From NCBI GenBank assembly GCA_019614645.1, contig JABWDB010000007.1, positions 5,035,501 through 5,099,500 of the forward strand: 64,000 nt of DNA, read 5' to 3'. This DNA comes from Stratiolaelaps scimitus. Taxonomy: Eukaryota; Arthropoda; Arachnida; Mesostigmata; Laelapidae. Position 1 is the stretch's first letter, and each line of letters starts with the position of its first letter. The notes beneath the pieces were generated by a model, which was given only the letters and a program-made list of their open reading frames with translations, searched no databases and was not told where the DNA came from. The translations under genes were made by a program, and so were the position numbers. Positions 1-63,201 of this stretch are shown piece after piece.

Positions 1-1099
1 GAGCTCAATCGCACACAGAGATTTCATAGGAGCCAATTGCATTATTTTTGACAGAATTTAATAATAGCTAACAAAATTCATTAGTCAGAGCTGAATCGTC
101 GTTAAACGCAGTGCTTATCTGACAACAATAATGAATATCATACACCTATATTCGAAGTCTAGCCTTCACACATTTCGACGAGCTCATCGCCACTTGCAGC
201 CGCTTATGTCCGATTAATGGATATCTGTTTCGTTCCGAGATAGTAACATGCATGTACTAGAGAGATTTTGCTTTATGGAAACACATTGATGCACGGAATA
301 ATTGCTAACGATCTGTTAAATGGTCGAAAATAATAAGTTGTTCTTGCGCTCGCCGATTTCACCCTGTTATTAACCAGCTGCTACAAAATCTCACGAGCTG
401 ATATGAAGAGTTGCCAAACAATGTTTGCGAAAACTGAGGTACTATTTAAAATCAAATAAGGTTCGCCTCGTTGAGAAATGTGTGGCACACTTTTTGGCAT
501 ACATTTTTTATAATTCACGTGGACGAGTTTAGTAGAGTCTAATCAATACCAAGCCCACTACCAAACATGTTGTTAAATTGCACGGCGGTGATAATCATGT
601 GCCTATGTGCAATCCTATTATCACTGTTTGATCTATCAAACAGTGGGATGGACTAGACTCCAATCCTGAGCTGCTCGACTTGCAAGCCTTGGTCTGAAAT
701 AATACAAAATCAGTACCTGATCAAGACCCAAGTTGACGTGGCCCAGGGCTTTAGTGGGTGAGAGTCGCACAGTACCAGACGAATACCTTAGTCGTGAAGT
801 CTGGTCTGCATAACTTTGCGTTTAAGCTCGTAGAAAAAAAGGGTATCCAGCCTAATTTTCGTACGAATATTAGGCACTTAACGTTAGAAGCCACGTGTCT
901 AGTTGAAGAAGCTATTTTGTGTAAAACTCAAACTTCCGAAGTTAAATCCTTTAACCTTCCTTTGTCTTGCAGGGCATGAGTCAACGTTCTAGCCGTGATT
1001 TCGTTCGTGCTCTATCTTCTGACGGTCAATTCCATAGAGCGTAAACCTCAATTTGATTGTGCTACCTCAAACGAAGAGATCACACCAGTCAACGGTCCA
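1..1099. other. Intergenic / possible 5' UTR of the first LOTUS-like gene
   Basis: I see no convincing gene here. A pyrimidine-rich stretch ending in CAG at 970-972 looks like a splice acceptor just upstream of the first paralogue. It is followed by an ATG at 976 that opens a 22-codon frame closing at TAA near 1042, out of frame with the main gene. This could be a short upstream ORF, or the true N-terminus if another base is missing. A short perfect hairpin (stem of 11 bp, loop of 2) lies at about 626-649. Confidence 0.4.
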
Positions 1100-3023
1100 A
1101 TGTCGCTAGCCCCAGACGCAAACGGCGACGTCATGGAGCGAAATGTTCGAGAATATATCGGCTCACTGGGAACATCATGCGCAAAAATGACTAGGATCCT
1201 GAAGCATTGCGAGATACAATTTGGAAACCATTTCTCGAAAGAGACTTTGATCTCAATGGTTGCGACTATGCCCAATGTCATCATGAGTGGGAGTAAGTCG
1301 AGAATACTAATCGACGTTGATCCGCAGTCAATAGCGACTCTAAAGATGAAAGTGAACAGTATTGGGGGTCCCTTTTCTAGGGAACAACTCGCGAGTCTCG
1401 TCCGTACACACCTTGGGATTGTGGCAGTAAAAGGGCCATTACTGAAATGCCTGGCGAAATTTCAAGTGTTCAACAAGCACAATGGTGCCCTATATCCAAA
1501 CAATATGCAGCTAAATCCTCAAAGGAACGTAGCCACCGACGCAAAGCCACACGGCGTAATTCCCAAGCAGCCTCCTCAGCAAGTGTCCGTGGGGTCAAAA
1601 TCAAACCGCGAGGTCGTTGAGCGAAATGTGATGCAGTTTCTCAACTCACTTGAGCCAAGTAACACTAAAGTCAGTGCTATCCTAAAGAAGTACAAGGCGA
1701 GATTCGAAGAAGATGTCCCATTAGAAACATTATTATCCGTAGCTGCGACAGCTCGCGACGTGATCATCACGGAAAATAAGAAAAGAATTATAGCAAACAC
1801 TGGCATCGATCTGGTATCAGTAGAAAATTTAAAAAAAGCTGTGGAAGGTATTGACGGTCCCTTCGATAGCGATCAGCTCGAGGATCTGATCCGCGTACAC
1901 ATGGGGGTCGCCATAATACAACCCTTACTGTTAAAGTGTCTGAGGCACCTACAAGTATACAGGAAACGCAAAGATCAGTTATACCCCTGCAACATGAGGC
2001 CATATTTTGGGGCAGCCACATCAGTCAACGATAAGCAACTCCAGAAGTCCACAGGTCCCTGCCATGTGGCTCCTTGTACATTAAATGCCATAGAAAGAGC
2101 AGACATGGAGAAAAATGTTAAGCTACTGTTAAACCGAAGTTCGCCAGTGAGCATGACAGTGAAATCAATCCTGAAGCTGTACAAAGCGAGATTCGGACAA
2201 GACATATCTCGAAGGGATTTGATCTCCACCGCTGCGACGATGCACAATGTGATACTGTCTACGAATGGGACGAGGATAATAGCAAACTCCGGACTCGACT
2301 GGCAATCCGTAGAGAGCTTCCAAAAAAAAGTTGAGCAGTATCGGGGGGCCCTTTTCTAAAGACGAACTCGATAGACTCATTCGTGGACACTTCACAAATT
2401 TTAAAGTAAAAACAGTATCACCAAAATATTTAAAGCACTTACAGGTGTACAAGCAGAAAAACCATATGCTGTATCCTTGCAAAACGACCCCAAACGTTAA
2501 TTATGGTACAAAAGTCGAATTTTCCAATCTAACTCTAAATACAGCAATTAGTTCGAGGGTTGAATGTTCACCCTTCAAGAAAGACTGCGCGTCTACAGAT
2601 GCAAGCGCAACGGCAGTAACAACGTGTGGTCAGAGGGTAAGCCATCTAATGGGATCAAAATCAGGAGATCATTTCCCAGTGACAAGAAGGACAGTTGCAG
2701 CTTCAAGTTATACACCCATGTTTGATTACGTTCAAGAACCGGCACAAGTCGATCGTTGTTCAACAGCTGATAAGACATTCGATGAGGGTGATGATCATAG
2801 CTTAATCGGTGATATTCTTCAAGTTATCAGCGCACATGAACGGCTCGCCTATCCGGTAGAGTTGCAGGCGCGGTTTAAGGAGATGACTGGTAACCCACTT
2901 GAGATTTCAGATCAACACAGTTTTATCATCAAATTGTTGGATTCCGCCCGTCTGACGGTTCAATGCGACGGGTATGGTGGAATGGCTTTGGTTGTTGAGA
3001 AGGAGTTAGTGGACGAATATTAA
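1100..3023 (+). CDS. Tandem-repeat protein with LOTUS-like domains, broken by a one-base frameshift
   Basis: Two overlapping frames form one gene. The first runs to a stop near 2357, the second continues to 3023. The product has three tandem units of about 160 residues, with equivalent glutamate codons at 1136, 1619 and 2108 (period 483-489 bases). Each unit has a first half (LLNS..., ILKkYkarFG, NVI..., kRIiaN) and a second half (IGGPFS, LIRxHlG, LLKcLxxLQVY, LYPcN). After an acidic/polar linker comes a C-terminal domain at 2795-3023 (RFKEMTG, LLDSARL, CDG). The pattern of helices followed by a basic strand resembles LOTUS/OST-HTH winged helices known from germline RNA regulators; this is inference. 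In the third unit, the second half is in frame only if one base near 2336-2345 (next to a G6C3 run) is ignored. Conservation on both sides suggests an assembly error or a very young lesion. Start at 1100 is the first in-frame ATG and uncertain. Confidence 0.65.
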
Positions 3024-9910: not shown

Positions 9911-10006
9911 TTTCCCCACGCCTCCCAAGTGAGAGGGAGCCCCCTGGAAAACCGCCGCGAACCAGAGGTATACAAGCAGTGCAACAGCGTGTTGTAGATC
10001 GTCAAT

Positions 10007-11167
10007 ATGAAGCCTCGCGACAGTAAAATACAAAGTAGCTCGGCTTGCGATCTTGTCCAGGAGCAAAAGCCAGCAGCTGGTTCAAGGCACGCATCTCGTC
10101 GACGTCGACGGTCGCATCCAAAGTCGTCCGAAGGCAATCGTCAATTGGCAACACCCCCAGCGCCGAACGACGTCCCGTTGGCTCATCTCACCGAACATAA
10201 CTGCAAAAAGCTTTTAAACAGCTTAGTGCCGGGTATCTATATTTTGAGTTACCTTCGAAATGAATACAAACTGATATTCCAGCAAGATATTTCAGACAAT
10301 GCTTTTACCTTTCTTACAAGGCATATGCCGAACGTCGTTTATAGTAGGAATGCCAGCAAGAAATGTGCCCTAGTGAATACAGAAATCACTACGCAGCTGA
10401 TAGATGACCTCGAGCGAAAGTTGAAAAGTGTCGATAAGCCTATTTTGAAGGATGAGCTTGACCACTTCATCCAACACTCACTCGGTAAAAAATCCCTGGA
10501 CCCGAACCTGCTGAAATACTTGGAGTATTTGGAAGTAATTAAAATCCATAACCTCGGGACACATTCGCCTTGGGTGTCATTGTTCAACACATCGGGTACT
10601 GCGAACAGCCACTGTGAGCGTTCCCCAAAGAAACATCTGGCAACTGGAATCGCAACTGCGAAGGATAATTTGCCAGTGAAAGTTGCAACTGGGGCAGCCT
10701 CAAGTTGTAAGGCACAATCGGCCTCCGTAGCAAAGCCATCACAGTTTGAGAGTTGCTCTTCCCACTCGAGCAACACCGTTGCCACGAAACAGCCGTTGTC
10801 TTCAGCTAGGGATCGGTACACAAAAGATCCACCAACGACTCTTGTTGACGTTCCGGAGATTCAAGCTTACACGGAGAGCACGCCAGAGGTCCCCGACGAA
10901 GAGCCCACAGACGAGGGCGACCATGATTTGGCCTTCGATGTTCTTAGCGTTCTCAACATACATGGACGACTTAGCTACCCGTTGGAGTTACAGGAGCGCT
11001 TTAAGGAAATGACTGGATACACGCTCGAGATTCCGGACAGAGATCGCTTTGTTATCACTCTATTGGACACTGTCTGTCTGAGGTTAGAATGCGACGGCAA
11101 GGGCGGGGTATTTTTAGTGGCTCAGAAGGAGGCAGTCGACTTAGATCAGGAACTCCACTCATGTTGA
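10007..11167 (+). CDS. LOTUS-like family protein, single unit plus C-terminal domain (386 aa)
   Basis: An uninterrupted 386-codon frame. The N-terminus holds a basic cluster (RRRRRSHPK at residues ~31-39), which could be a nuclear localisation signal. Residues ~65-190 match one full repeat unit of the gene at 1100-3023 (LLNSL, YLRNEYKLIFQQDIS, MPNVVYS, LLKYLEYLEV). A polar, Ser/Thr-rich linker follows, with an acidic stretch (EVPDEEPTDEGDHD). The C-terminal ~75 residues (YPLELQERFKEMTG, LLDTVCLRLECDGKGGVFLV) match the C-terminal domain of both paralogues and resemble a LOTUS/OST-HTH domain by eye. The start at 10007 is the first in-frame ATG after the decayed unit. Function is not known; a role in RNA or germline regulation would be inferred only from the domain resemblance. 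Confidence 0.75.
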   Translation: MKPRDSKIQSSSACDLVQEQKPAAGSRHASRRRRRSHPKSSEGNRQLATPPAPNDVPLAHLTEHNCKKLLNSLVPGIYILSYLRNEYKLIFQQDISDNAFTFLTRHMPNVVYSRNASKKCALVNTEITTQLIDDLERKLKSVDKPILKDELDHFIQHSLGKKSLDPNLLKYLEYLEVIKIHNLGTHSPWVSLFNTSGTANSHCERSPKKHLATGIATAKDNLPVKVATGAASSCKAQSASVAKPSQFESCSSHSSNTVATKQPLSSARDRYTKDPPTTLVDVPEIQAYTESTPEVPDEEPTDEGDHDLAFDVLSVLNIHGRLSYPLELQERFKEMTGYTLEIPDRDRFVITLLDTVCLRLECDGKGGVFLVAQKEAVDLDQELHSC

Positions 11168-13640: not shown

Positions 13641-13847
13641 AGCACACTGTCCAAGGCTGGATATTACGGATCATCTTATTCTACGAGAGAACAAAGAGTT
13701 ATCGTTAAAATGTAGTCAAACTCCTTGATGGCTTGCTGCCGATCCTATACAAGTGATTGAGTGATAGACCAGTTGCCCGGGGCTCCATAGCGTGCCTCAT
13801 TTTTGAAAAGATACTCGTAGATCACAGTTACTCATACCTCTTTATTA

Positions 13848-15146
13848 ATGATCTCCTTTGGTTGCCCAATAACAGACACATCAATAGATGCATTTAAACC
13901 ATTTATTGATGACGACGGTTTAGTTAGAGTGGGAGGCCGCCTTCAGTTTGCGGACGAGCCATTCAAAATCCGCCACCCCATTCTCTTGGCGGATGACCCG
14001 TTCACGAGGCTACTGATCATGGATTCCTATCAAAAGCGAACCATGCACCTCAAAACGGAATTGGTGATGAACGACCTTAGGAGAAAGTTTTGGATACTCC
14101 GGATGAGGCAGTTGGTAAAGTCTACCATCCGAAAATGCAATAAATGTCTCCGAGATAGTGCAAAATGCGCTGACGTGGCTGAAGCTCCTCTTCCCGCTCA
14201 TAGAATTGAGCTTTCCTTCAGACCGTTCAAAACCACTGGTCTAGATTATCTAGGACCTTTCATGGTTCGCGACCGAGATTCGGAGCATAAGGTCTGGGTA
14301 GCGCTCTTCACTTGCGCTACCATCAGAGCGATCCACCTTGAAGTAGTTGAAGGTTTGTCTGCAGCAGCATGCCTGTCAGCCATTCGACGCTTCGTCTTTA
14401 GATACGGGATGCCGGATCATATAATATCGGATAACGTCTTAAATTTCAAAAAGGCAGATCGCTGTTTATCAGCATTATGGAATTCTCTAAATCATGAAGT
14501 AACACAAGAATTCTTTAGTATGAACGGCATAAAATTCCAATTTAATTTACCCCGTTCCCCTTGGTGGGGGGGATTCTTCGAAAGAATGGTGAGAACAGTA
14601 AAGCGGTGCTTGCGGAAATCCATCGGCAAACAAAAATTGAGAATTTGGGATTTCGCTACTGTTCTGCATGAAGTGGCCGCAATCATTAACAACCGACCAC
14701 TCACTAGATATATTGATGAGGTGAATAATCCTATTTGCCGTTCTCCAGCCATGTTCATTCTACCTAACATTCCTAATATCCTCCCCGGGGGTAAATTGAA
14801 TGGTTTAAATGAAAAGCCCGACGAGCTTATAAAATTATGGTGACAGAAGGAGAGGATCCTGCAAAGTTTCTGGAGGCGTTGGAGGGACGAATATCTTCTC
14901 TTCGTGAGATCGGCGCTTCGGAAGGCCAGCGGAAGAGGAGCAGCCTTGGAGGAAGAAGACATCGTCATCATCAAGGACGACTCTACACCTCGCGCCTTTT
15001 GGAGATTAGGTAGAATAGATAAGATAATTCCTAGTAGAGATAGGTTATCTAGGTCGTATTCGGTCCACTTAGGTAATGGAACGCACATAAGCCGTGCAGG
15101 CAAGCATTTAGCCAAAGTACTGCAACTTGTAGAAAGCCACTACTAG
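13848..15146 (+). mobile_element. BEL/Pao LTR retrotransposon, integrase and C-terminal part (defective)
   Basis: The 331-codon frame 13848-14843 matches the 3' part of BEL/Pao pol: DGLVRVGGRL, a zinc-binding region (FWILRMRQL, CNKC) in which one histidine appears lost, and the integrase core with D (LDYLGP), D (ISDN) and E (SPWWGGFFERMVRTVK). A stop at 14843 and a frame change lead to the typical C-terminal domain of this group at about 14850-15143 (WRRWRDEYL, ALEEEDIVIIKDD, PRAFWRLGRI, GKHLAKV). Protease, RNase H and reverse transcriptase are absent, so the copy is 5' truncated and frameshifted. The DNA upstream belongs to a LINE. Confidence 0.85.
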
Positions 15147-15631: not shown

Positions 15632-17203
15632 GAAAGCCCTGTTTTCATTATTTAGACAGCTTGCCTGGTTTTTGAGAAACGTAGTAGTATCTTACAGCTA
15701 GATTTACTATTTTCTCCATACCCCGTTATTATTTATAACAGCATCGATGAACACGGTCTGTCCTCACATCATTTCGTGGGGTACTTTAAATATAGATTCG
15801 AATGCACGCAATCCAACTCACGTATATGACATGTATTCTAGGGCGCTGCTGCAGCACCACCAGATATGGACGAAAAAAACAGTGGCGTAACGCAAATACG
15901 CTAATACGCTTTACGCAGCCGTCCCCTATTAAGTGCTAGCACTATTTCGAATAGAACCTGCCACCATTGTAGTGGCAGGTATTTATTTCTGCGCGATTTT
16001 CTACGACAAAAAGAATGTTTTATTCGCCATTGTCTCTAACGATCACTAGTTAACATACTGGGATGCCTGAGCCGTTCGCTCAGGCTTGTACACAGCCTCC
16101 TTCGTCTAAACGCCACGCGGCTGTAATATGGTCGATCCAGACGAAGTCATAGTTGGCTCGGTTGCTTCTGACACCCGAATTTCTTCGTCCCGATTCCTGG
16201 TACTCGCATGACCTCAGCCCAACTTGGAAATCGAACTCGGCCACGAGATTTCAATCGGGCCCAAACACCGTTCCGCTCTGACCGAACACACCTGCTCAAT
16301 TCACTGCTCTCTGCCGGTTGATGATAATGGTCATGATTAGCTCCTTTCAACACAACACGCATTTGCTGATAATTGTCGCCATCTGATTCAATATGTAGCT
16401 AGGCATTTTCGTGTATGAATCGATCGGCTTTGTTGGGTTTTAATGAGAGCTAGAAAGTGAATGCACAGCATCGCACCCCCGTATTTAGGCGTAGCTGAGA
16501 GTTTCACTCGGACTCAGCGATGGGGTGAGGCAATCAGTCAGCCAGTGAGTCAGTTGAGAGTCAGTTAACCAGTCAGTCAGTTGCGTTAGTAAGTGACGGT
16601 GCAAGGGTTGAGCTTTGTGTGCTAGCCTGTGATCGAATCAACTACTCTACCGGTGAATACAGGGTTCCACGTTGAACAAGTACGCCCCCAATTACTGTGA
16701 GTAGGCTATGGTATACGATAATAGTGCAATTGTAGTGCATAAATAATCATTTTTTTCTAATATAATATATATATATATATTTAACGGATGCCGACGAAGT
16801 TGCGTTTAGTTCAGCCTAGAAGTCAAGTTGAAATGTGTGCATCTATGTGTCTGTGGTAAACTGTAAATACGTTAGGCGTTCAGTAACATTGTACGGCTCA
16901 GCAAGAACTCTGCACACGATTAGGCCACCTCGACAACAACCATTAACCTTGCAGCTGTCATCTTATCATACTTATGTTGTTAAAATTCCGAAGTTCTGCG
17001 TTAAACTCATCTATACTAATTGTTTATTGCCAACTCGATAAAGGGCAGCCATAGACATATACTTGCTTACACAATTTTTGCGTATACTCTGTTGGATCTT
17101 TCATAGAATCTCTTCTCATCCGGTTCACGACGCGCGGTCTGTCTGGCACTACATACGCCGTCTGCGGTTACATTTTACATTTTGACACTAGCTCGAAGCA
17201 ACT
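15632..17203. other. Intergenic stretch
   Basis: No supported gene. It contains a perfect 9-bp GC-rich hairpin (15956-15980), a cluster of CAGTCAGTCAGT-like imperfect repeats at about 16528-16585, and a (TA)n tract near 16765. Confidence 0.4.
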
Positions 17204-17839
17204 ATGATTCAAATGGTCATTGGCATAACCATTCTGGTTTTTGTCAGGCTGGCCTCTTATTTTCTTCCTGAACTGTCCACACAACGTCGCCGGACAGTGT
17301 TGGACGGAGGAACCGAGGTAGGTTGGCGTAGCTGTCCACTGAATCAGGTTGCAGGTCGAACAGAAGATGAACTGACCTCAAGCGGGGAGTCGAATGAAGC
17401 TGTGGAACGTGCAACTGAAGTACAAAGCACATCGAGCGGTCGAGTCACTGGTCAAGCAGAACTGATAACCAGAGACGAGGATGACACCAGCTGTGCCAAC
17501 TTTGAGGAACAAGCTGCTGATGAGATTATCTGTGCGGACCAACTTGATGAGGACGAGTTGGACGATATTGTCCATTGTGTTGCCAGTATTCTAGAAGGAC
17601 TCGACCGGCTTGACTATCCTCGGGGACTCCAGAAGGCATTCGTTGAAATGACTGGGATTCGACTTCACATTGAAAGGCCTAAAGTCTTCCTGTTCCGACT
17701 GATGAGGTGCGTTCAACTCCGCGTGGAGTGTGATGGTAAGGGGAAAACTTTCCTAGCTTACTTCGGGGAGGTTGTCGATGAAGACCAAGCTGTGTTCGTG
17801 CCGACTCCCCCGTTCGAATGTGAGGCAGACATCGAGTAA
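17204..17839 (+). CDS. LOTUS-like family protein, short form with C-terminal domain only
   Basis: The C-terminal ~75 residues (DIVHCVASILEGLDRLDYP, FVEMTGIRLHIE, LMRCVQLRVECDGKGKTFLA) match the last domain of the paralogues at 1100-3023 and 10007-11167, including the CDGKG turn. The middle is acidic and Glu/Ser-rich, like the linkers of the paralogues. No repeat units are present. The first ~20 codons of the frame are hydrophobic and could be a signal anchor, but the DNA there (TTCTGGTTTTTGTCAG, ending at 17247) is a good splice acceptor. The real exon may therefore begin at 17248 and the hydrophobic stretch may be translated intron. Start is uncertain. Confidence 0.6.
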   Translation: MIQMVIGITILVFVRLASYFLPELSTQRRRTVLDGGTEVGWRSCPLNQVAGRTEDELTSSGESNEAVERATEVQSTSSGRVTGQAELITRDEDDTSCANFEEQAADEIICADQLDEDELDDIVHCVASILEGLDRLDYPRGLQKAFVEMTGIRLHIERPKVFLFRLMRCVQLRVECDGKGKTFLAYFGEVVDEDQAVFVPTPPFECEADIE

Positions 17840-21418: not shown

Positions 21419-24400
21419 TCACATTCTGATGGCGAGGAATGGGAAACACGTGAGTTTCTCGCGAGTCATTATACGAATGACGGCGCTGGAAAGTTTTTGC
21501 TTCGTCAGACGGCTTCCTTCAAATTGCAATTGCATTGCAAGAAGTTTCCGCAGGATGACTTCCCGCAAGGGGGCGCAGTCTGGGGGTTCCGCGGACTCAG
21601 ACGAGAGTAAACCCACGCCACCCCCCCTGACCGAATGGTCCCCACTGCTGCAATAAGACCGGAGGGAAACGGGAAAGGCCAAAAAGTTCCTCTCTCTCTC
21701 TCTCTCTCTATTTCTTTATACGATACGAGAAGCCGCGTTATGCCCAGTAACGTAATGGTGGGCTGGCCGCATTCCAAAGTGTATATATCACGTATGCCGC
21801 AGAGTGATGTTGGCTCTTGCCTCTCATAGGGTTACATGTGTAGCGATGCAGCCGGCTTGAATTGATTCTCACGGATCTCTATGGCACGTGTGCTCATCGA
21901 GTATAGACCATACGAGTGAGATGTTAGAGACGAGACGTTTATATTGGCAGGTTAAGAATGGCTAAGAACGAGAATACATTACGCGGTGAAGTATCGTCGA
22001 TACTGACCGAATCTGAGGGAAGCGGCGGTGATTAAGATCACGCCTAATCGGCTGAAATGCCATGTGTTGCTTAGCACAACCCAGAACGATCATGTTCATT
22101 GGGCTTGGAGGCGTAATTTCTAGGGGTGTTTTTTTTAATGTCGTATGAGAACACGGGCAAAATGTATATGAATGCTTGCTGTATTTAATTCTAAATAACT
22201 GATTGAAACACAAATTGATAACATAAGTTCTTGTAATAATAGAATAAATGGTTTCAAATGTAGTTCTCCGTTTGTGGGCGTCTACAATTTACACAATAAG
22301 CCCGAATTCGTAAAATCACTATTAATGTTAAACTTGTTTTGAGAACAGTTTGATATCGCATCGCAATATTGAAGCCACTAGTAAAACTCATCGCTCCGGC
22401 GATCCACATAAATTCACCATCATACATCGGTTATGCCTTATAATTTAACTACTCAGTCGGTTGCAGATCTGTCGCGTACCGAGAGTCCGCGCACATCTAG
22501 CCAATTGGGCCACATTGGTGTTCCTGCTTGACGTACTTCGGCTCTCTTCGTCGACTCTTGACGCACTTACTGGTAAGCGTGATCGTTATCAAGCATCGGT
22601 TCCATTTCGGCGACACGAGATCTTTTCGCGCAATGAGCTGAATCACCGCTAAGCTCCAACTCTCGAATGGTTTCAAAATTCTCCGAACAGAACTTGTACT
22701 CGTTTGCAGCGTCAACGTGGTTGTAATACTCTGCATTGGCTTTACTCATATCGGCCTCCAGAAGCTGCCGTCCGTCGTGTTCCTGAATTCGCTCAATACC
22801 TTTTTTAGGTCTTCCAGCGCGTTTCTTTGGTGTTTCGCCGCTTTTGACGTTGACGAAACTGATCCCTTGCAGCGCCGTTCCGTCAGTACACCCTTGATTG
22901 GCAATTAATCGGTCCTTCACATCGGCCAAGCGAGCAGCGATCACCTAGAGAACTCAGCATTTCATTTCATTAGAAAGCGATCTGAAATGCAAGTCTACAT
23001 AAGTTATAATACTTGCTCCGGGGTTCGCAGCTCATACCTGCGAAATCCGATCGGTGTCCCTAATCGTTTATAAGACAAGTTCGATTAATAACACGAGAAT
23101 AAATCGCACACCCTTCACGATAAGTTAATTAGGGAATAGGAATAATGGGTCATTTTGCCTAACATTTCATATACAGCACATCCAACAACGTAACTCGTTG
23201 ATGACTTAATGGGCAGTCCACGTGCTAGGTCACCCTAGGTTAGGATAGATCCGAATATATATATAGGTTAGGATAGATCCGAATATATATATAGGTCAGG
23301 ATAGATCCGAATATATATATAGGTTAGGATAGATCCGAATATATATATAGGTTAGGATAGATCCGAATATATATATAGGTTAGGATAGATCCGAATATAT
23401 ATATAGGTTAGGATAGATCCGAATATATATATAGTTTGTCAGAAGCCTAACCTTCTTGGCATGGAGTATCGTTTGGAGGGCTTTGGCTCTGGCCACCTCG
23501 TGCTGGCTAGGTTTACAATCGCCTCCGGGCCCTTCCTGTGTTGTGCCGTTGTTGGTCTTCGTTGCCGGATCCCCGACCCCGTCACCAAATAGTGCTCTCT
23601 GTCGAGGCGTCGGCCTGAAAATAACGACCTCATCGTAACTTTCTTCTCGGACAAATGGCACGTACGACCAGTCATCAGAGCTCTGCTGTCGACCACTGCG
23701 CTCGGGTTTGTGGTATGCCACGAGTCGCAGATCGTGCGATAGGACGAGAGGCTTTACGGCGAGCACGTCGTGGAAGTAGAGGCGAATCTTAACAGCGAAC
23801 TCGCCCCATCCCGTACGCGTCACCGTGAACGGTGGACTATCCACGCACTCGTTCCTGTAGTGAGGCTCCAACACGAACACTACCTGCGCACAACTCAAGT
23901 CGCCACCGAATAAATGTCACAATAAAGAGGGCTGTAGTTCGAACGAGTTAGCAGCTATATCGCATCTACGTAACCAATTAAAATAAATTCAGTATTGACA
24001 AGGGTTCCCCCGTGGGAGTTGCATTCGACCACCACAAACGATCGGGTGAACTGTAAATCGGGCGTTTCAGTTGTTCCTCCGAACGCTATTATGAACGTTG
24101 CACGCTACCTTGCGGACGATCTTGGCCAGGGCTCCTGCCTCATGATCATTGTACGCTCGCACGTAGACGGCCCATCTATGCGTGTGTCCCTCGGGCAGTT
24201 CGGGAATATGACTAGCATCTCCTACATACTGGGCCTCATTCCCGTATACGATCGACAGGCTGCACTCATCGCTCGCTTGTGGTTGTTGCTGTTGGATATC
24301 TGACGCAGTCGACGTGGGTGAGCCAGAAAGTGCACATTTGGACCTAGTCGAGTCCAGTGTTGGTTCGCTTTTTGGGCAATTCGGCTCGACGGAAGACATC

Positions 24401-24501
24401 GTCTGATTACTACAAGGCGATGCTGGTTGGCCATCATTAGACATTGCCACAATGGGATCAGGTGTCAATGGTTCCCGATGAGCCAGACATTGGGTGAACA
24501 T
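21419..24501 (-). CDS. YEATS-domain chromatin protein (YEATS2-like) with AT-hook-like motif
   Basis: Four exons on the minus strand: 24501-24109, 23883-23452, 22944-22571 and 21644-21419. All join in frame at GT-AG sites, giving about 474 residues. Exon 1 ends in the first YEATS strands (YGNEAQYV..., HRWAVYVRAYN). Exon 2 continues with VVFVLEPHY, then SPPFTVTRTGWGEFAVKI, the acyl-lysine reader core with its conserved tryptophan. This matches YEATS2 of the ATAC acetyltransferase complex best, as judged by eye. Exon 3 carries an AT-hook-like KKRAGRPKKG. The last exon follows a strong polypyrimidine tract and a CAGCAG double acceptor (start 21647 or 21644), and ends near a poly(A) signal. The last exon and the 5' end are less certain; earlier exons may exist upstream. 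Human YEATS2 is far longer (about 1400 residues). Confidence 0.75.
21691..21711. repeat. (TC)n microsatellite in a YEATS intron
   Basis: A short run of TC dinucleotides lies just upstream (on the gene strand) of the polypyrimidine tract of the last YEATS exon, where it reads as (GA)n. Confidence 0.8.
23237..23434. repeat. 28-bp minisatellite, seven copies, in a YEATS intron
   Basis: Seven head-to-tail copies of a 28-base unit (GGTTAGGATAGATCCG followed by a TA run). Six are near identical and one has a T-to-C change (third copy). It lies within the intron after the second YEATS exon, starting only 17 bases from the splice donor at 23451-23450. Spacers are absent, so it is not a CRISPR array. 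Confidence 0.95.
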
Positions 24502-24519
24502 CTGGTGGACACTGCACAC

Positions 24520-25973
24520 AAAATCTACGCCCGCTACAACGAGCTGCTGGAATTACCACAGCGGCTGAACACGAGCGGGCATTAGCAGACGACAACAATA
24601 TGCTCACAATGCATGCGAACTCGACGGACAGGGGAGAAAATAACGACGAAGTTACCAACTAGGAGATTGAGTACAAGCAAACAAATGCATTCATTCAGTT
24701 TGGTCATGCACACAATAACGACGACGACGCAGCAGCAGCAGCCGCTTGTCTTCTCTCTGTCTCAGAGAGAGAGACAATGAACATGGTAGATTGGTGGAGA
24801 AGGTAGAACAGTTAATTTCAAATAATAGAAAGCTCAGGAAGTGACTGGTACTTTTGAGACCATCCCTGATCTGGAATTCTGCGGCCGACAGGAACGGCGA
24901 TGGCGTGCTGAAATCTCCTGCTTCTTCCGGTGGCCTGATCCTGGCTATCTCTGGCGATTATTGGTTATCATGATGTGGGTGAATGTGGCGCCACTCGCTG
25001 AAGAAGCCCGATGGTGCATAGGACGTGTTATATTTGAGCAAGGGTATGAGATCGATCCTACTCGGTGCCTGGTGAACTTCAATCCTACCCGCACAGTTTG
25101 GTTGATCGCCTCAGGCTTCACGCCGTCCACGTAGCTACAATACGTTGAGCCCTCAGAAACAGAGCTTTTGTCCTGGCTGACTCACAACCAACATTTAACG
25201 TCCACGGTAGAATTGCTTTGTTGCTTTTTCTTTTTTTTTTCTTCTTCTTTCAATTATTGCTGATCCTAGAGGGGTTATTATTTGCGTCATGGTTCGGAAC
25301 TAATGTCGTATTCAAACATATGCGTCCTGCGAGGTTCGAACGGGAGACCCTAGGGTTTCAAGTCATCGGCTCCATCTGATTGGAGTTGCTATCCTGCTTG
25401 ACTTCACTCGTCGCGAGAGTACTCATCCTACAGCTTACTAACCTCAGAAATAAGCTGTTTTTATGCGCCATCATTAGCAAAATGCTACTGCCATTCGCAT
25501 TCTTGTGGATTCGAACTCAACCGATAATCAGAAGTGTTGCTTTTCTTTTTTCCACCTTGTTAAGAAGGAATTCATTTTTAAAAATATGCTGTGAAATTAT
25601 CTATCGCTACATGAAACTTCTGTGACTTTTCAAAGGCATAGCTCGAGGGCGAGGGAGAGTTATTTTCGTGTGCTTACTTCCCTCCGATTTTTGTTCACAA
25701 AGAGATCAAGACGAGCCGCGATAAGCAGCGTAGTCATATCTCAACCATGCATGAAGAGAATCAGCCCGTGCCGTGGTTGTCGGAGACGGGAAGCGAACGC
25801 GAAACTCGTACCACTTGAGTGATTTCCCCTGAGAATAGATATCATCTTGGTCGCTATTTATTCGGGAGATGATAATTTCCCATGATATATCCCACTCAGA
25901 GATCGGTATCGATTGAGCTGAACAGCCGCAGCTAAATTACCCTCCCGAAGAAAAACGTAACATATCGTAGATA

Positions 25974-28451: not shown

Positions 28452-31037
<2,586 letters not shown>

Positions 31038-44283: not shown

Positions 44284-45717
44284 TAAACTGCCCTTCATTA
44301 TTATTTTGATATCCATGAAAACTTACGATTGTGTAGACACAATTATAGACACACATAAATACAATTATCGTTTACGTTTGTATAAATATAGAGATTACAT
44401 TTTGCTATCCTATTTAAGTAATTAATGTGTGTTTCTAAATAGACTAAATAGAAAGGCTAGAATCCTCGATTTTATACAACGGCTCAATCCAAAGGATTGA
44501 TATTGATGATAATTCTAATTCCTAATTATTGATGATAGGAACGCATATATATATAACAACAAATACTCGATTTTATTCGGGTAGTTGTTGCAAAATTAAA
44601 TGACAAGCGCATGCCCAAATGTTTCCTAATCAAGTTCGAGCCCATTCATTATCAGTTAGCCGTGTAAGTTTGATCTAGTAGCCCCCATGTTAATTCACTC
44701 GGTATATCACATCCGGGTGCATCGCTTATTACACTGTGCCCTCTCCTCGAAACGCGCGTGTCCTGAATAGTGCGGTTCTGGGTTTTTCCTCCCGGATAAC
44801 CGAGACTCCGACCATGGTAAGATATTCTTGAAAAACTTAGCATCAAAAAGGGCCGTTTTTAAGAAACAAAGGTGTGAACATAATCTACTGTGTACAGTTT
44901 CGTACATCGATGCGCAGTATATTGTGAATTGTCTGAAACAAACTGCTATCCACCGGTAGAGGTGACCTGCGTGACGTTCGAATCATGCACAACGCGTAAA
45001 ACAACAAGGCCGACAGATCAACTAGGTATAAATGATTCCACGATGCGTAGCGAAATTGTGTGGTCGGTAAATCCTTTATGCTAACTTCGAAGATGAAAAA
45101 ATGAGACAATTGGGCCACAATGTTTGGATTCGTTTGAGTAGAGCCAACGCCTGTCAATATACTCCGCCCGTTATCGAAGGACAAAAAGTAGACTACTGAC
45201 CGTCTACACGAAGGTGTCATGCAAGTGTCATGTAGCTCATATTTGTGCACCTTGGAAGTTTAAAGCTATATGCGCTGTTAACTAATTCACTTTTTGCTGT
45301 TTTTATGCACCAAGTGGTCATTTCTTATTTGGTAGAAGTTGGTATTTCAAGAATAGTCGAAAAAGACTAGAATAGTCGAGCAAATATATGTGAGTAGTTG
45401 CCCATCGTAGTCTATCGAAATACAAGGTTGAGATCGAATGACAGATACGGCATGGGCTTCCATTGGAAACTAATGAAACCAGCCTTCATGGATGTGCACA
45501 CCCAGAAAGTACAACAATGAGCTGTCTCATAAATTGTGTTTGACATTAATTTAGATGATGATAATGACTTCTACTTTGTGCGCGTTTTCTATTGGCTCAA
45601 CGAACACTATCATTGCTGAGTATCCAAGGGTGAATATTTGACACATCGACTTAGAGCATCACCGTGTAAATCATGTGACGAACGTATTGAGTACCTCACT
45701 GTGACGAATCATTTCAG
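43297..45717. other. Intergenic stretch upstream of the MIC26/27 gene
   Basis: No supported coding exon. It contains (TA)n at 44249-44279. A 5' noncoding exon of the MICOS gene is expected somewhere here, because its ATG stands directly at a splice acceptor. Confidence 0.4.
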
Positions 45718-45867
45718 ATGGCGTCGGCTCAGTGTGCGGAAGCTCCAAAGGCCGAGGCTCCAAAGACGGAGAAGAAATGCAAGCCTTGCTGCGTTGGAAA
45801 GAAGATGTTCAAGCCTCAAGAGGTGTGTTATGTTTCGGCTATTGCAACAGATAGATTAAAAAATAGT

Positions 45868-55475: not shown

Positions 55476-55481
55476 TTTATT
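55476..55481 (-). promoter_or_regulatory. Poly(A) signal downstream of the 154-aa Cys-rich gene
   Basis: AATAAA on the minus strand, about 143 bases after the stop at 55624. Confidence 0.35.
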
Positions 55482-55623: not shown

Positions 55624-57623
55624 TTACGGCCTGTGGCAATTACGTATCCTCTTTCCTCGGCGTGGCGGAACGTAACGAGGCACCCGTAGTGCTCGCGGAA
55701 CTCGACGCGAGCGTCGTTTGCGCCCACCTTCACCTTCGGCTTCATCTTCCTCGCCGAGTGGTGGAGATGACGTTGTCACCGCCGGAGGATTGCGGAGACA
55801 TTTACAGCTGTATTCCCCTGGGTGAAAAATAATGAATGGTGTTATCCGTGATGGCTTGGCGCTACGCCAATGTGAGCTCGAACCACGTAACTATTAATCT
55901 GCAGCAGGAAAAGGTGTCAAGGCACCTTGGGAGTACCGTAGCGTAGCAAGTTCGGGGTCAGCAAGGAAAAAAAAAAACAGTCGCAAGAGTTGGCCTATTC
56001 GACAGTGAACTTCAAGCCCCATTCTCGTTCTGGCCCATCAGTTCGCATGATTTATCATCGTTTATACGCCAGTCACAGGCTCTAGGCTTCAAAATTTGCC
56101 TACTGATAAGGCTTCGTTCGCAAATAGACCTTAGTTCAATACTCAACCTTTGGTCCGTATTTCGCATGCAGGTGAGCAGCGCTGCTGTCGCTACAGCAGA
56201 GTTCTCATCACAATTACTACAACACATATTACATGCACCTTTAGCTACGAGACGGGGACTTCTCTCTATTCGATGACAGACAATTTTTTATCAGTTCTAC
56301 GACGTTTTTCGAAACAACGAAGGCAAGAATCTTTTGAGCGGATACTCAAGTCAATTGCAAATCGAGAACACATCAAAAAGCCCAGTGAAAACAAAAAACC
56401 CGTTTTGAAGGTCTTCGAGGGAGTGGTATCAAACAACCGTGTAGCGATATTTCTTCACGAAAACCCAAGCGTTGTATACTTGCAATTCAGTTATTAAATC
56501 ACAATTGGATTGAATTGAATACCGTCGATTTCGTATACCAATGAAAGTCAAACGAGTTGCAGCCTTTTCGGGAGCACTTTTTCAAACGCACGAATAGAGA
56601 ACGAACCGCCACATCGATACAAAATGACCGGAGTAATGGTGGCCAGCACATTCGGGTCCTGTCAAAATTGCCGTGTCTCATACCAGAGGTGGTGATGCAA
56701 ATGACGACCAGAGAAATGTATTTACCTTCGTCGACATGGCAGAAGTGATATTGGCAGGGTCTGCAGGTTCCTTTGCAATGGCGGCGGCATTTCTCCAGTT
56801 CGCAAGAGTTGCACGGTCGGGCTGCAGGCAAGTGTTGTAAGGTTAACCAAGAGTGAAGTTAGTTACGAAACTGAATCCACGTAGGAACTCAAGTTCTCGT
56901 TCAAAGGAAACACGAACGTAAGTAACACACACTGAGCAGTACGCCTACTTTGTATTCTTTCAAATTGACATTTAGCGTAGAGCAACGATTAGAAAACGAA
57001 CCGGGCGTGTATCTGATTCGCGTTCGGTTAGGCTGCGCGCGACGGTCTCATTGAGACCGCGTAACAGGTATCTATAATTAGCTGTTGTCCAATGAAAAAT
57101 GATTATGTATGGTTATTGCGTGAGGATTGCAATGAATGGAATAACTAACCTCTATTTGCTTTGTGACTCTTACACAAGTTCGGGGATCAGTCTGTTGTTG
57201 ATCACAAGTTGTTGCTTCTAAGGTGGTCTATTATTATAAATATGAATGATGCTCAGGGTGATAATGATAGTATATATACATAGTGTTTAATGACACAATT
57301 GGCTAGTTCGACCTTAGCGCACCCCTGGTTCTTTTCAGTCGATTAAAGAATCAATTATAATATTATTATTGTTATTTCACTGAACAATTTCGCATTGTAT
57401 ACGATGGGTGCGTGTGCGATAGCGCTCCATCTGTCGAAGTGAGCTTACTTTTAGGTTCCTCCGTGGGGCCAGCTTTCATGGCATTGACCGTTCCATCACC
57501 AGTCGGTGACTCATGATCGCTAACCGAATCTAGACAATTAACTAGCACGCTTGGGTTATTAATGCACATCAAGGCAAAAATCACCACCGTCGTTAACCAT
57601 GCTTCTCCGGGGTGTCGCATCAT
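55624..57623 (-). CDS. Secreted cysteine-rich peptide with CSαβ-like spacing (154 aa)
   Basis: Three minus-strand exons join in phase at GT-AG sites: 57623-57449, 56821-56726 and 55817-55624. An in-frame stop precedes the ATG. Residues 1-31 form a signal peptide with a hydrophobic core (TTVVIFALMCI). An acidic linker follows to residue 58. The cysteine domain spans residues 62-97 with cysteines at 62, 65, 70, 74, 78, 81, 86, 95 and 97; spacing CxxC, C4C, C3C ... C8CxC recalls the CSαβ fold of defensins and scorpion-type peptides. The C-terminal tail is rich in Arg (GRKRRSRR, RRGKRIR) and ends with a tenth cysteine at 151. The gene at 63201-61067 is a paralogue with the same intron phase before the domain. 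Function is unknown: antimicrobial, salivary or venom-like, or signalling are possible. Dibasic-rich sites suggest processing. Confidence 0.7.
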
Positions 57624-60562
57624 TCACGCGGGGGCAATCCGATGCGGCGAGTCCAAGCTTTCCACACACCTGTATGACCCCAGCGAGTTTGTCGCGGTAC
57701 GCGGCTGTAGCGGAATTCTCCTCAACGTTGCTTGGTTACCGTACGACGACTCTTTTCATAGCAGGTCCAGCGTGTTCCTTGGCGAGAGGTAAGAGCTGTA
57801 TAGGCTCGCACGCCGCTTGGTCAGTCACTTGCGATCGATACAATGTATGAGTAGGAGGTTTAAGAATCGACGCTGGCTGCCTCTACTGGTCACACGCCAT
57901 AGAGTGAACGTTTTAGGTCGATAGGCTAGAACGAAGCGTACAAACCCTATTGATAATAACGTAGCCGTGAGAAGAACTTATTTGCTGGTCGTCCGAGTCG
58001 ATGTCGAATCGTGACCCTTTGCCGATAATCACAACGCGACACGTGGAAACAAGATGGGCCGCGTTCGTTTTACGTACAACAGGATACTTCCTAATTAGAC
58101 TGCAATACAAGTAGTACGGCGGAACTAAGGCTATGTTGTCGTGTCCCGAGTTCACTCAACCCACACAAACCCTGTGAATTCTATGTCTCTCTCTCTCTCT
58201 CTCTCTCCTTCTGTTTCTTTCTTTCTTATTGTCAAATTAGCTAATAAATAGCGTAAATTTCACAAAACATCATAAAAGTCTAATGCTTCGGGCGCACTTC
58301 CACCAGTGTCTCCCTGTGACTTCCACGGTACCGCTCGCGTTTGAATCGCCTTCAACGATGCAGCGGAACCGAGTGTGGTATTCCAAGTGATGGCCACGTG
58401 AAGGTCGCGTAACATCTTACAGTGTCTTGCTCTTAGTGGCTCCTTACAGAGGTCAGGTCTCCCTTTTATTGCCCTCACCGTATTGCACTAGCGGATGTAC
58501 AGACGTATATCCAGATAGAACAGCCAGCCGCTCTCAGTTCATTTACGTAATACCAAACGATCGCCCGCGCTCAAGCCAAACGCAGGCTGATAATGCGTGG
58601 CTAGTAGCTCACTGTACGTTGGAGTTCACTGGTGCACAGCAAGTCCCTGAGCAATAGGCGTTTGTTGACTCGAGGAAAAAGACCTTGGTCAATAGCGAAG
58701 CGAGCCACGAGAAAGGGTATGACAGGGATACTTATACGTAATGGGTAGTTGAGTTTAGTCGACAAGAAGACATGGGGTCCCTCATTTCGGTTTGGCGTGC
58801 AACGTGTTGTGGCTGCAAAATATGACTTTTTGAAGAATATGTCCACTTGGTTTGTGGCTTGATTGTGATTGATATCATGTGAGCTGGCACTATTCAAGGG
58901 CAATATTTTTGAAGAGATATGCGTTGTTTCCTTTTGAGGTTTGGATAGGATTTGGTAGAGCGTTCTGCTCACCCAGTTGTGAGGGCAGATGCTGAGGGCA
59001 GGTGGCGTGTTGGATAAAGGAGTAGTATTAGATTCAAGGGGAGTTGTGTAGGGTCAGAGGGTCAAATCTGAGAGGAGAATCTTCACAATTTTGAAAAAAA
59101 AATTGAAAAAAATCAGTAGTCGCAAGTAATGTGGTCTGCGGCACAGCTGGCACTGTGCAGAAACAAAGGCATACCCCGCATGACCCCTGTATACGTCATA
59201 AATACTGCATGTTTACATACACGGGGCTTTTTACAGACACCCTATTGACCACAGTAACCGTTAACGGACGGGAAGTGGATAGAGGTCCTAAATGGGAGGT
59301 CTGAGAGTCAGCTAACCACGTCATGTCCGTACGGCAAGGAGGATGTATACTTGTATACATCTCACCGCTCCCTAACTGAAGGAATACGCTAAGCTATACA
59401 GGGAAGGACCGTTCTGGTCGAAAATCGTCAACAGTAGTAGAATGGGGGACGGTCACGGTGTTGTTGTCATGCTTTGGCATGGCAACACCGCCCCTTTGGG
59501 AAAAGAAGTTGTGACTTTAGATCGAAGGTTGTTTTCAAATCGGGACAGACAGCATTTGATCATTTTAAAATTATATATACGCTAATTCTTGAGACGCACT
59601 ATAATAATGGAAAACCTAGCAAATGCTAGATCAGCTTAGGCGATTCCGATCAGATTTATTTGAGCCTAAGAATGACACCTGCATTTGAGTCCAACAGTTT
59701 TGTGCTGCAGGGCCAGGTCGACTTGCACTTTGTGATGACAGAAGACTATCTATAAATAAAACACAAACACTTTGGGGGTTATTCAATAACAAGTACTTGT
59801 TTTTATTATATTTATATCAAAAATGACCTTTAGCATATTGCATTGACATTTCAATGATTGGCTAGCCGAAATGTAGTAAATTACTTGAAACTTAATTCGA
59901 ATTCAGGTCATAGAGTTCGGCCCAGAACAGCCCAACTCGAATTTACAAGGTGATTTTTCTACTGTCCATTTTGTATCGTCGGAGAGATTGTCGATCTTCC
60001 ACAAGTTCTAATCGATGATAAGATACCAACAAAAGGACCCCTCCCAGGCCTACAATCTACGATACGATGACTTCTAGCCGGCGGAGTCCATTTCATACGG
60101 ATGATAAGGTTGATAATATAAGCGTTTATATTGCTTTATTAAACTGAACTGCGAACAGCCAGCCATCATGACAATGATTTTTCTAGTGGGAGCCTCTCAG
60201 CGATTTACCATAAGCAGCAAACGTGTACATGGGGCTAAGCTGTAGCGCTAGCATTGACTATGAAAATTTGAGGAGGATGGCATCGCCATTATCACATGCT
60301 ACTGTTTGCCCTTGTATCAATTTAGTGACTAGAAAATGGTTTCACATTGTACCACAAGGTTTGATCGGCAACACTGTTGCCACAGAGAGATGAATCGTTT
60401 GACATTGTCTATCTAATTTCTTTTTGTTGTAGTTGAACACTTGCTATTTTGCATCAAACCCATAATAAGAAATATCTATTGAAGGAATTCATTTGGGAAT
60501 TGACGAAATAGTTGATGTTACAATCACTTTTTACTAGATGACCTATGTACGTTGTACATAAG
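57624..60562. other. Intergenic stretch between the two Cys-rich genes
   Basis: No gene supported. It holds a (TC)n tract (58182-58208) and a perfect 9-bp hairpin at 59342-59361. A minus-strand frame at 58260-58478 shows no known domain. Confidence 0.4.
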
Positions 60563-60671
60563 GAAGCCAGAGGCCGCAGGTTCGGGCCCTGCCGTGTGAC
60601 ATATAAGAGAGCTTAAGCATTGTAAAATTGCAGCTCCTTCAATAAACCAATAAACCTTTACCTTTACCTTT
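60563..60671 (+). repeat. SINE family 1, copy f (5' truncated)
   Basis: Starts at GAAGCCAGAGGCCGCAGGTTCGGGCCC and keeps body, AATAAA and (CCTTTA)n tail. It is nearly identical to copy b over the shared part, so it is young. Confidence 0.85.
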
Positions 60672-60829
60672 TACACTGATATGCCAATGACCTGTTACAT
60701 AATGATTATTCTTCCCCTGTAAACCAAATACCTCATACACCTGAGCATCTCAACAAGCGAGATTAAGCAGGGGAACTTTTGAGCAGATTAGTCTTCCCGG
60801 GGAGTCGAACCCATGAAAGAACTAGCTAG

Positions 60830-60835
60830 TTTATT
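60830..60835 (-). promoter_or_regulatory. Poly(A) signal downstream of the mucin-like Cys-rich gene
   Basis: AATAAA on the minus strand about 230 bases after the stop at 61067. Several other AT-rich candidates exist, so this is tentative. Confidence 0.3.
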
Positions 60836-61066
60836 GAGGGGAGATTGGTGTTTGATCTAGACGGAATCTAGATACCACTGCAAACAGAACAACTTCCTTA
60901 GGCTTATTCTGGAATGATAGAAATGGCTACTGTAAACTTGAGCCTCGCAGAGGGAATATTATTCGTGTCGATGATTTCGATGTTATTAGAGTTCTCTCTC
61001 TACTGCTGCCTGACACCGGACAACGCTGATAGCGTCTGTGAGCGGCGGGAATAACGAGCTAGGACT

Positions 61067-63201
61067 TCATCCAAATTTACTACCGTCCTTATCGGTACAG
61101 CGGCGCACTCTTCGGGCCTTGGCGGGGACGAATCTCGCGGAGCGGGCCTGAAGCCGGACCCGGGTGCACATGCATTCGCGCTCCTCGCCATCAACCGTGC
61201 AGCGGGATATCAGCCCGTGGCTACAGCGACGGCGGCACAGCTCGATGTCGCAAGCTGAACACTCTGGGGAACGATTGTAGCACAGAAGAGATATGTGTGA
61301 ATGTTGGTTTCCCGTAAGCGATTCGTTTGCGTTCCTCAATGAGTTTCGATTGTCTCGTTAACGTCTACTTAGTGCTGACATCGAGAATAATATAGGTGTA
61401 TATGCAGACGTGATTAGGACACTCATGAAATAAGTTATCGTTCGGGGGTGTGGTGAATGACCTCATAATGACCGAATGATGTAGCATATCTGAAACGACT
61501 GGAACGAAGCTAAAATAATAATAATAATAAAAATTATTATTATAATAATATAATTTATAAACTAATAAAAGCTCTGGTAAATATCGCTTGTATGGGAGCG
61601 CCTACTATAACCACTGCTGCTGGGCGCTAGTGACAACGATGTTGCTCGCGTCACGTAAATACGTGCCACGAGCAACATCGGCTGGTGATTGAAACCTTCG
61701 GGAATTAAATGAAAATCATGCAGCAGTCTGATAGCGACAACTTTGCCATATGATAGCAATACCACATTGTAACAATATGCTCGAACCTGCTGTAAAAATG
61801 AATTTATTATAGAATAAGCCCAACATTTTGGACAAGTGATCTTGTGTGCACCTTTAGTCGCTCTTTTTTTTGTAGGCTTCTTGTATCTATACTGCTCTTT
61901 CACAAGGTCAATGGATCTAGTGAATGTATTAGGCAGCTGCACGCGTGGCTGGATAAATCAATGCATTTACGAACATGCCGAGTAATGAAGGGTAGGAATA
62001 ATGCATGTAACACATTTACCCACAAACTTTATCGGAAGAAAAATACCAACACCACAGCAACCTCTCTGTACGATCATCCCGTAGATTTCCGGCTCCAAGT
62101 ATAATAGGTGATTGATGGATGAAGACCGGTTGGCCAAGTGAATGTTTTACAAAGAACATTAAGTGAAAAGAGCATTGCCCAGCGGACTCCGGTCAGTTTC
62201 ACACTATAGGGCCCGCTGCTCGAGTGTATCGACTCTGCGTGCAAAACGGTGAAACCTAGCGAACGTGTTGTAAAGTACATGGAAAGTGATATTTTCGTGG
62301 ATATTGTACTTCCTTCACTAATCAGTATTGGAAAATGCACTCTGTGCCACGAATCGAGCAGTTGATTACCTTGGTTTTGTGTGTTAGTCGATGTTCACTG
62401 ATATCGAGCACAACAGCTGTTATCTATCGATCTGCCAATTTACTCACTATCGATTATAAGTGGATGATAAAGATCGATTCCATGCAGGGCAGGATGATCT
62501 GTCAGCCTCGTAGTTCTTTCAGCCGTTGCGTCCGCCGGCACGGAAGCCGAAGCAGGGGTACCTTTGGGAATAACAGTTGACACCGTGGTCGCCTTTGGGC
62601 TCGAGGTTATTTCGTCTGTTGACCGACCACCTCCAAACGTTGTCCGTGCCTGGGCCGTATTAACATCTTTCGGGCCAGCGGTGCTCGACTGGCCGATCGA
62701 TACCGTTCTCGGTGCAGACGTCATGCTTCTAGTGTTGCTCGAATCAGTCGTCAGTTTGTCTGTTGCAGTCGTTCCCCGTCGATTTCCGTCCGTCGAGCCC
62801 AAATCTTTGCCAGCCCCCTCCGCCGTGTGAGGTGCAGCGTCCTTCTCGTCATTTGTAATCTCACTCGTGGGCTGCTCCGCGGTAGTCCGTTCTCCTAGCG
62901 TTGTGGGTAGTTCTTTGCTGGGTTCTGGTTGCATTGATGCCGACCCATCGCCCACGCTATCATCGCCGGTATGCTGGGCAACAGTAGTTACAATTGGAAC
63001 TGCGACTGCAGGTGCACTTGGAGTTGTCTGATTGTGCTCGTCCTGTAACGGCGTTGTTGGCGACAGAGGACCACCATTCGTTTGTAGGCTTGCTGTCGTC
63101 GTTTCCGGATTTACCTGAGCCCGAGTCGTCAGAATGCCGGCGAAAATCAATGCCACAGACACGAAGTGTCTCAACATTTTGCACACGTTGCTGATGTCCA
63201 A
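61067..63201 (-). CDS. Secreted mucin-like protein with C-terminal cysteine-rich domain (316 aa)
   Basis: Two minus-strand exons: 63201-62448, ending at the strong donor GATA|GTGAGTAA, and 61263-61067. Phase 1 to 1 matches. Residues 9-29 (MLRHFVSVALIFAGILTTRAQ) are a signal peptide; the ATG at 63201 adds eight residues. Residues 30-250 are Thr/Ser/Pro/Ala-rich with few hydrophobics, typical of O-glycosylated mucin-like regions. The second exon has cysteines at 253, 256, 261, 265, 273, 282, 284 and 307. Spacing CxxC, C4C, C3C and C8CxC is identical to the paralogue at 57623-55624, which has one extra cysteine pair in the loop. The Arg-rich tail (FVPAKARRVRRC) also aligns with the paralogue. 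Likely secreted or cuticular/salivary, with the Cys domain possibly released at basic sites; this is inference. Confidence 0.7.
61637..61680. repeat. Two-step hairpin (12-bp outer, 5-bp inner stem)
   Basis: CGATGTTGCTCG at 61637-61648 pairs perfectly with 61669-61680. Inside, CACGT pairs with ACGTG around an AAAT loop, separated by a symmetric 3-base internal loop. It lies in the long intron of the mucin-like gene. Confidence 0.75.

Follow-up and report, generated by a model that had tools for sequence, protein, structure and literature searches.

Two neighbouring mite genes predicted to encode paralogous secreted cysteine-rich proteins with different N-terminal halves

What kind of protein is encoded by two neighbouring genes that share a cysteine frame and begin in different ways? 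The question is raised by a 64-kilobase stretch of the genome of the mite Stratiolaelaps scimitus (contig JABWDB010000007.1; the whole stretch is called the window below), in which an initial annotation had placed a pair of minus-strand genes, here named A and B, with signal peptides, CS-alpha-beta-like cysteine spacing and different N-terminal halves. Both genes lie where claimed and encode predicted proteins of 308 and 154 residues, respectively, with hydrophobic starts (signal peptides were judged from hydropathy). Their comparison confirms, as far as sequence goes, a pair of paralogous, apparently secreted cysteine-rich proteins whose N-terminal halves differ, with a 223-residue linker in A versus an acidic region of about 30 residues in B. 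We propose that both are built on a CS-alpha-beta (defensin-type) domain and have a role in defence, a reading to which we give an even chance.

Two genes with a common cysteine frame

Gene A is assembled from two exons and gene B from three (Table 1), with 3443 bases between the genes. All three introns (one in A, two in B) are GT–AG and of phase 1, as read from the joined frames. They include the intron ahead of the domain that the initial annotation had recognized in both genes; it had overlooked the second phase-1 intron of B, which divides a domain left uninterrupted in A. The two proteins also have a layout in common, in which a hydrophobic start is followed by an acidic region, a cysteine-rich domain and an arginine-rich tail with one last cysteine, as had been reported for the tail. 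The nearest AATAAA lies 232 bases past the stop codon of A and 143 bases past that of B.

Successive cysteines are separated by 2, 4, 3, 7, 8, 1 and 22 residues in A and by 2, 4, 3, 3, 2, 4, 8, 1 and 53 in B. The identity of spacing first claimed holds for C2C, C4C, C3C and C8CxC, which are common to both, but not for the loop after CxxxC, which has 7 residues in A versus 11 in B, where it contains two extra cysteines. The even cysteine counts, 8 in A and 10 in B, hold only if the signal peptide of B is cut after Cys30, and evenness is not conserved in the related Varroa jacobsoni protein described below, which has 11 cysteines in all, unlike the 10 past the signal region of B. The long linker of A, annotated as about 220 mucin-like residues, has 28% serine plus threonine; a search for tandem repeats there gave none, and 'mucin-like' therefore describes its composition only.

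A scan of all six frames of the window finds the full cysteine-spacing pattern a single time, in exon 2 of A, and it is absent from all of 60 mononucleotide shuffles; the copy in B escapes such a scan because an intron splits it. Aligned with each other, the two domains score 68, which is reached by 0 of 2000 free shuffles of B and by 1 of 2000 in which the cysteines are held fixed, and by the latter figure A and B are alike beyond their cysteines. The score of the aligned tails is reached by 2 of 1000 shuffles. A third copy sought by tblastn with A, B and the Varroa protein was not found in the window, which ends 823 bases upstream of the start codon of A, nor was any direct repeat of more than 28 bases linking the two genes.

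A relative in Varroa and the standing of each gene model

A search with full-length B yielded, among 35 candidates, one protein with an expectation value (E) of 10 or less: the uncharacterized V. jacobsoni protein LOC111267931 (P0001), at E 1.8e-50, 60% identity and 99% coverage. That this single homologue comes from a mite agrees with the acarine origin guessed at the outset. Identities are 13/28 in the signal, 20/29 in the linker, 36/41 in the domain, 6/14 in the acidic linker and 19/34 in the tail, making the domain the best-kept part of B. The alignment is free of gaps across both exon junctions of B and thus supports them, the Varroa protein being possibly itself a gene prediction. LOC111267931 shares with B all nine domain cysteines, the acidic linker, a furin-like site and the arginine-rich tail. 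With its spliced model matched over 99% of its length, gene B is well supported.

The model of gene A rests on sequence signals, and relatives outside the window were not found. A domain-only query (candidate lengths of about 36–114 residues) gave no candidate homologue, and a full-length query scored on residues 226–308 returned 46 candidates that all lay above E 10, proteins of about 115–168 residues lying outside both queries. Against LOC111267931, the domain score of A is reached by 0 of 2000 free and 23 of 2000 cysteine-fixed shuffles and the tail score by 52 of 1000, so the tail likeness is weaker than that between A and B. The lack of a homologue with either query and the weak tail likeness speak for a reading in which the modelled gene A is not functional and its two exons, the mucin-like one and the one with the domain, come from separate transcripts or from a copy in decay. 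We think this quite unlikely: none of 5000 shuffles keeps the 243 codons of exon 1 open, a signal-like segment stands at the beginning of that exon, splice-site type and phase are the same as in B, and the likeness to B in domain and tail exceeds that of most shuffles (scores reached by 1 of 2000 and 2 of 1000).

Other searches added no relative. Scans of contig collections with LOC111267931 gave 44 genome and 7 viral pattern matches, 0 of them confirmed, and little was to be expected from them because the sequences in these collections are of prokaryotes or viruses. None of the four queries matched NCBIfam, and neither Pfam nor NCBIfam has a model that matches the domain significantly. We took as chance the sub-threshold Pfam matches of the LOC111267931 domain to DUF6839 (E 0.09) and of full-length A to a nodavirus capsid (E 0.22), and likewise the PDB hits that the sequence of A gave to ExsE (E 0.52) and TNF receptor 6 (E 1.7). 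In the open-licence literature we found no paper naming LOC111267931 and none on a defensin with an arginine-rich C-terminal extension in Acari or Varroa.

Evidence for and against a CS-alpha-beta fold

The CS-alpha-beta superfamily has been described by an array of ten cysteine positions (Tarr, PMC5116183). By our mapping onto this array, A occupies C1–C4, C6 and C8–C10, as do drosomycin, plant defensins and long-chain scorpion toxins. The CxxxC and CxC elements (C3, C4, C8 and C9) read CRRRC...CMC in A, CRRHC...CKC in B and CRLHC...CKC in LOC111267931; a relaxed CS-alpha-beta spacing is found in all three sequences, as are cysteines at the positions for C2 and C6, the C6 of B being our choice. 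The cysteines of B can fill all ten positions, as do those of macins such as theromacin (PMC5116183), a comparison made on array positions; the PDB sequence matches include no macin. Compared with superfamily members bonded C1–C10, A and B have an arginine-rich extension (22 residues in A, 53 in B), C1 and C2 two residues apart, no significant sequence match and putative bonds.

The predicted model of LOC111267931 has strands at residues 61–63, 83–91 and 94–101 and a helix at 66–79, with a predicted local distance difference test (pLDDT) value of 73–79 for the block. That of A has a helix at 6–12 and strands at 18–23, 26–36 and 51–57, with a mean pLDDT of 59, and given this poor model its structural rows were set aside. 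The order of elements in the relative of B, three of the four realigned structural rows and the fit to the ten-cysteine array give moderate support to the CS-alpha-beta likeness suggested in the initial annotation.

Several observations keep this assignment short of proof. Defensins account for only 2 of the 22 Foldseek rows, none of which is significant; the structure model of A is of low confidence, and no CS-alpha-beta peptide is among the matches listed for it (50 of 213 Foldseek, 12 VIA); and neither Pfam nor the PDB sequences give a significant match. The strict defensin motif CX4-15CX2HCX6-9GX1CX4-9CX1C (PMC6435467) is found in none of A, B and LOC111267931. The gamma-core GxC/CxG, usual but not obligatory, is absent in A, and as read from sequence B and LOC111267931 have GTC at the fifth cysteine (CKG at the fourth) and not at C6. 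The competing families raised at the outset, TIL and chitin-binding, are absent at E ≤ 10 from the Pfam matches of A, B, LOC111267931 and their domains, obtained with HMMER filters that drop weak matches, and no such chain is named among the structural matches listed.

Comparison with defensins, toxins and basic-tail proteins

Arthropod defensins, like A and B, are secreted, have CxxxC and CxC and are preceded by a phase-1 intron (PMC6435467). Such an intron flanks the mature-peptide exon in both genes, and the undivided mature-peptide exon described in the same source is present in A but not in B, in which intron 2 splits it. Given this split and the absence of the strict motif, A and B should not be filed as canonical defensins. 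The scorpion defensin genes of that source also differ in that their first exon ends inside the signal peptide; their products have six cysteines, and the portion available does not mention an arginine-rich tail with a cysteine. Eight putative defensins are expressed by the mite Dermanyssus gallinae (PMC10183022). The mytilin pattern, C-X3-C-X3-C-X4-C-X11-C-X-C-X-C-X2-C (PMC7168163), differs in spacing from A, B and LOC111267931.

Long-chain scorpion toxins have C1 and C10 and a long extension between C9 and C10 (PMC5116183), which the 22 residues of A and 53 of B recall. The pair could accordingly be salivary or venom-like effectors, CS-alpha-beta proteins delivered at feeding to affect the channels, haemostasis or immunity of the host. 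Some tick defensins have been suggested to be toxic (PMC4085379), and a protein in Varroa saliva is reported to be toxic to Apis cerana larvae (PMC5821841). No toxin is found among the PDB or Pfam matches at E ≤ 10, however. Effectors often change fast, whereas the domain of B is identical to that of its Varroa relative at 36 of 41 positions, a count that leaves the background rate between the genomes out of account. We regard this possibility as unlikely.

A different reading of the C4C...C8CxC segment would make it an EGF-like hairpin in a salivary protein, with a Salp14-like basic tail that binds clotting or complement factors. Among PDB sequences, those matched by the B-type domain are EGF modules around GEYxCxC, from factor X (5/5 rows, E 3.5–4.3) and fibrillin (1/1, E 4.5), although none is significant; the predicted model places a helix over CxxxC; and two patterns starting at CxC, which we take to be EGF signatures, are absent from A, B and LOC111267931. 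Among tick proteins, BSAP1, a proposed relative of Salp14, has an EGF-like topology, and the basic tail governs the anticoagulant effect of Salp14 (PMC8294578). Basic-tail proteins of the Salp14/BTSP type resemble A and B only in layout, with a basic tail placed after a secreted disulfide-rich domain. They have six cysteines, bonded C1–C3, C2–C5 and C4–C6, and a lysine-rich tail (PMC9779611), versus 7 or 9 domain cysteines, including CxC, and an arginine-rich tail with its own cysteine in A and B. An EGF-like or basic-tail identity strikes us as rather improbable.

A proposed masked cationic protein

If the CS-alpha-beta assignment is right, a short helix bearing CxxxC would be pinned to the CxC strand by predicted bonds C3–C8 and C4–C9, with C2–C6 completing the fold. 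The first cysteine of CxxC would pair with the last cysteine of the tail (predicted C1–C10), which would tie the cationic tail to the domain and keep it attached even when cut. Net charges run −11, +1 and +8 along A and −4, +3, −6 and +15 along B. Because this layout is acidic before and basic after, we infer the precursor of a masked cationic peptide, in which the acidic N-terminal region (−11 in A, −4 in B), together with the acidic linker of B (−6), would mask the basic tail (+8 in A, +15 in B) before secretion. Furin may be able to cut B at RKRR (residues 123–126), and, once active, the cationic face and tail would bind anionic microbial surfaces in defence. The threonine- and serine-rich region of A may carry O-glycans that hold the domain in mucus, on the cuticle or in saliva.

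The basic sites of the tail admit another interpretation, that of a regulatory-peptide precursor in which cleavage by furin at RKRR and at a dibasic site after glycine would free an arginine-rich, C-terminally amidated peptide, the cysteine domain being its carrier. B has GKR at 145 after PPRR, a motif that it shares with LOC111267931, which has RRRR and GRR (141) at the places corresponding to RKRR and GKR. Arginine-rich tails hold such triplets by chance, and each protein has a second Gly-basic-basic site, at 122 in B and 118 in LOC111267931; conservation in the tail (19/34) falls short of that in the domain (36/41), the tail of A has no such glycine site as read from sequence, and a freed peptide would lose the last cysteine. 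We consider a regulatory peptide very unlikely. In our judgement A and B are most likely cationic defence proteins; a salivary effector comes second, and we rank below it both the regulatory-peptide precursor and the EGF-like basic-tail protein. A wider reading, whose last step sets the core of one paralogue on a long mucin-like stalk through a change of first exon, seems unlikely.

Feature coordinates and the rest of the window

The features of the two genes are collected in Table 1.

Table 1 Features of genes A and B, in positions of the 64-kilobase window
Feature	Positions	Strand	Remarks
Gene A exon 1	62448..63177	minus	Signal peptide, about residues 1–20, and 223-residue Thr/Ser-rich acidic linker, residues 21–243
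Gene A intron	61264..62447	minus	1184 bp, GT–AG, phase 1
Gene A exon 2	61067..61263	minus	Cys-rich domain in full, followed by Arg-rich tail and stop codon
Gene A domain from Cys 1 to Cys 7	61166..61261	minus	From Cys-pattern scan
Gene A eighth (last) Cys, in Arg-rich tail	61097..61099	minus	From spacing; position counted from tblastn frame
Nearest of the three AATAAA motifs in the roughly 1.3 kb past gene A	60830..60835	minus	Possible polyadenylation signal; short-motif match only
Gene B exon 1	57449..57623	minus	Signal peptide, about residues 1–30, and short acidic linker; matches V. jacobsoni protein
Gene B intron 1	56822..57448	minus	627 bp, GT–AG, phase 1, directly 5' of domain
Gene B exon 2	56726..56821	minus	First seven Cys of domain
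Gene B intron 2	55818..56725	minus	908 bp, GT–AG, phase 1, between seventh Cys and CxC; without counterpart in gene A
Gene B exon 3	55624..55817	minus	CxC, acidic linker, Arg-rich tail with last Cys, and stop codon
Gene B Arg/Pro-rich tail, residues 122–154	55627..55725	minus	Net charge +15; coordinates counted from tblastn frame
Nearer of the two AATAAA motifs in the roughly 1 kb past gene B	55476..55481	minus	Possible polyadenylation signal; short-motif match only

Elsewhere in the window, a short cysteine-rich frame start with KKCKPCC (45691–45843, plus strand) has a sub-threshold Pfam match to Toxin_5 (E 0.0068, 17.3 bits versus a cut-off of 25). It also resembles the first exon of the copper chaperone Cox17; a second exon was not found with a pattern search. 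Three plus-strand frames (2313–3023, 9998–11167 and 17192–17839) have in common a motif resembling GRLSYPLELQERFKEMTG and seem to form a local gene family, with no Pfam match at E ≤ 1, and the frame at 980–2359 (plus), adjoining the first of them, has internal repeats of a different motif. On the minus strand, two frames at 23380–24552 match the YEATS domain (one at E 4.4e-14, the other at 2.5e-4, narrowly below the cut-off) and are probably exons of one chromatin-reader gene; those at 28452–30921, which match Cupin_8 (E 8.4e-14, and 0.0091 under the cut-off), are probably exons of one JmjC-type hydroxylase gene. A plus-strand frame at 13821–14843 has a match to an integrase zinc-binding model (E 5.1e-8) and is probably what remains of a retroelement.

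Implications

The pair offers a small case in which introns of equal phase couple one domain to two quite different first exons. If the proposed fold is right, A and B would belong to a secreted defensin-type family that Pfam and NCBIfam models do not recognize, present in this mite and in Varroa, a genus that parasitizes honey bees, and would add to knowledge of the immune or salivary proteins of these mites.
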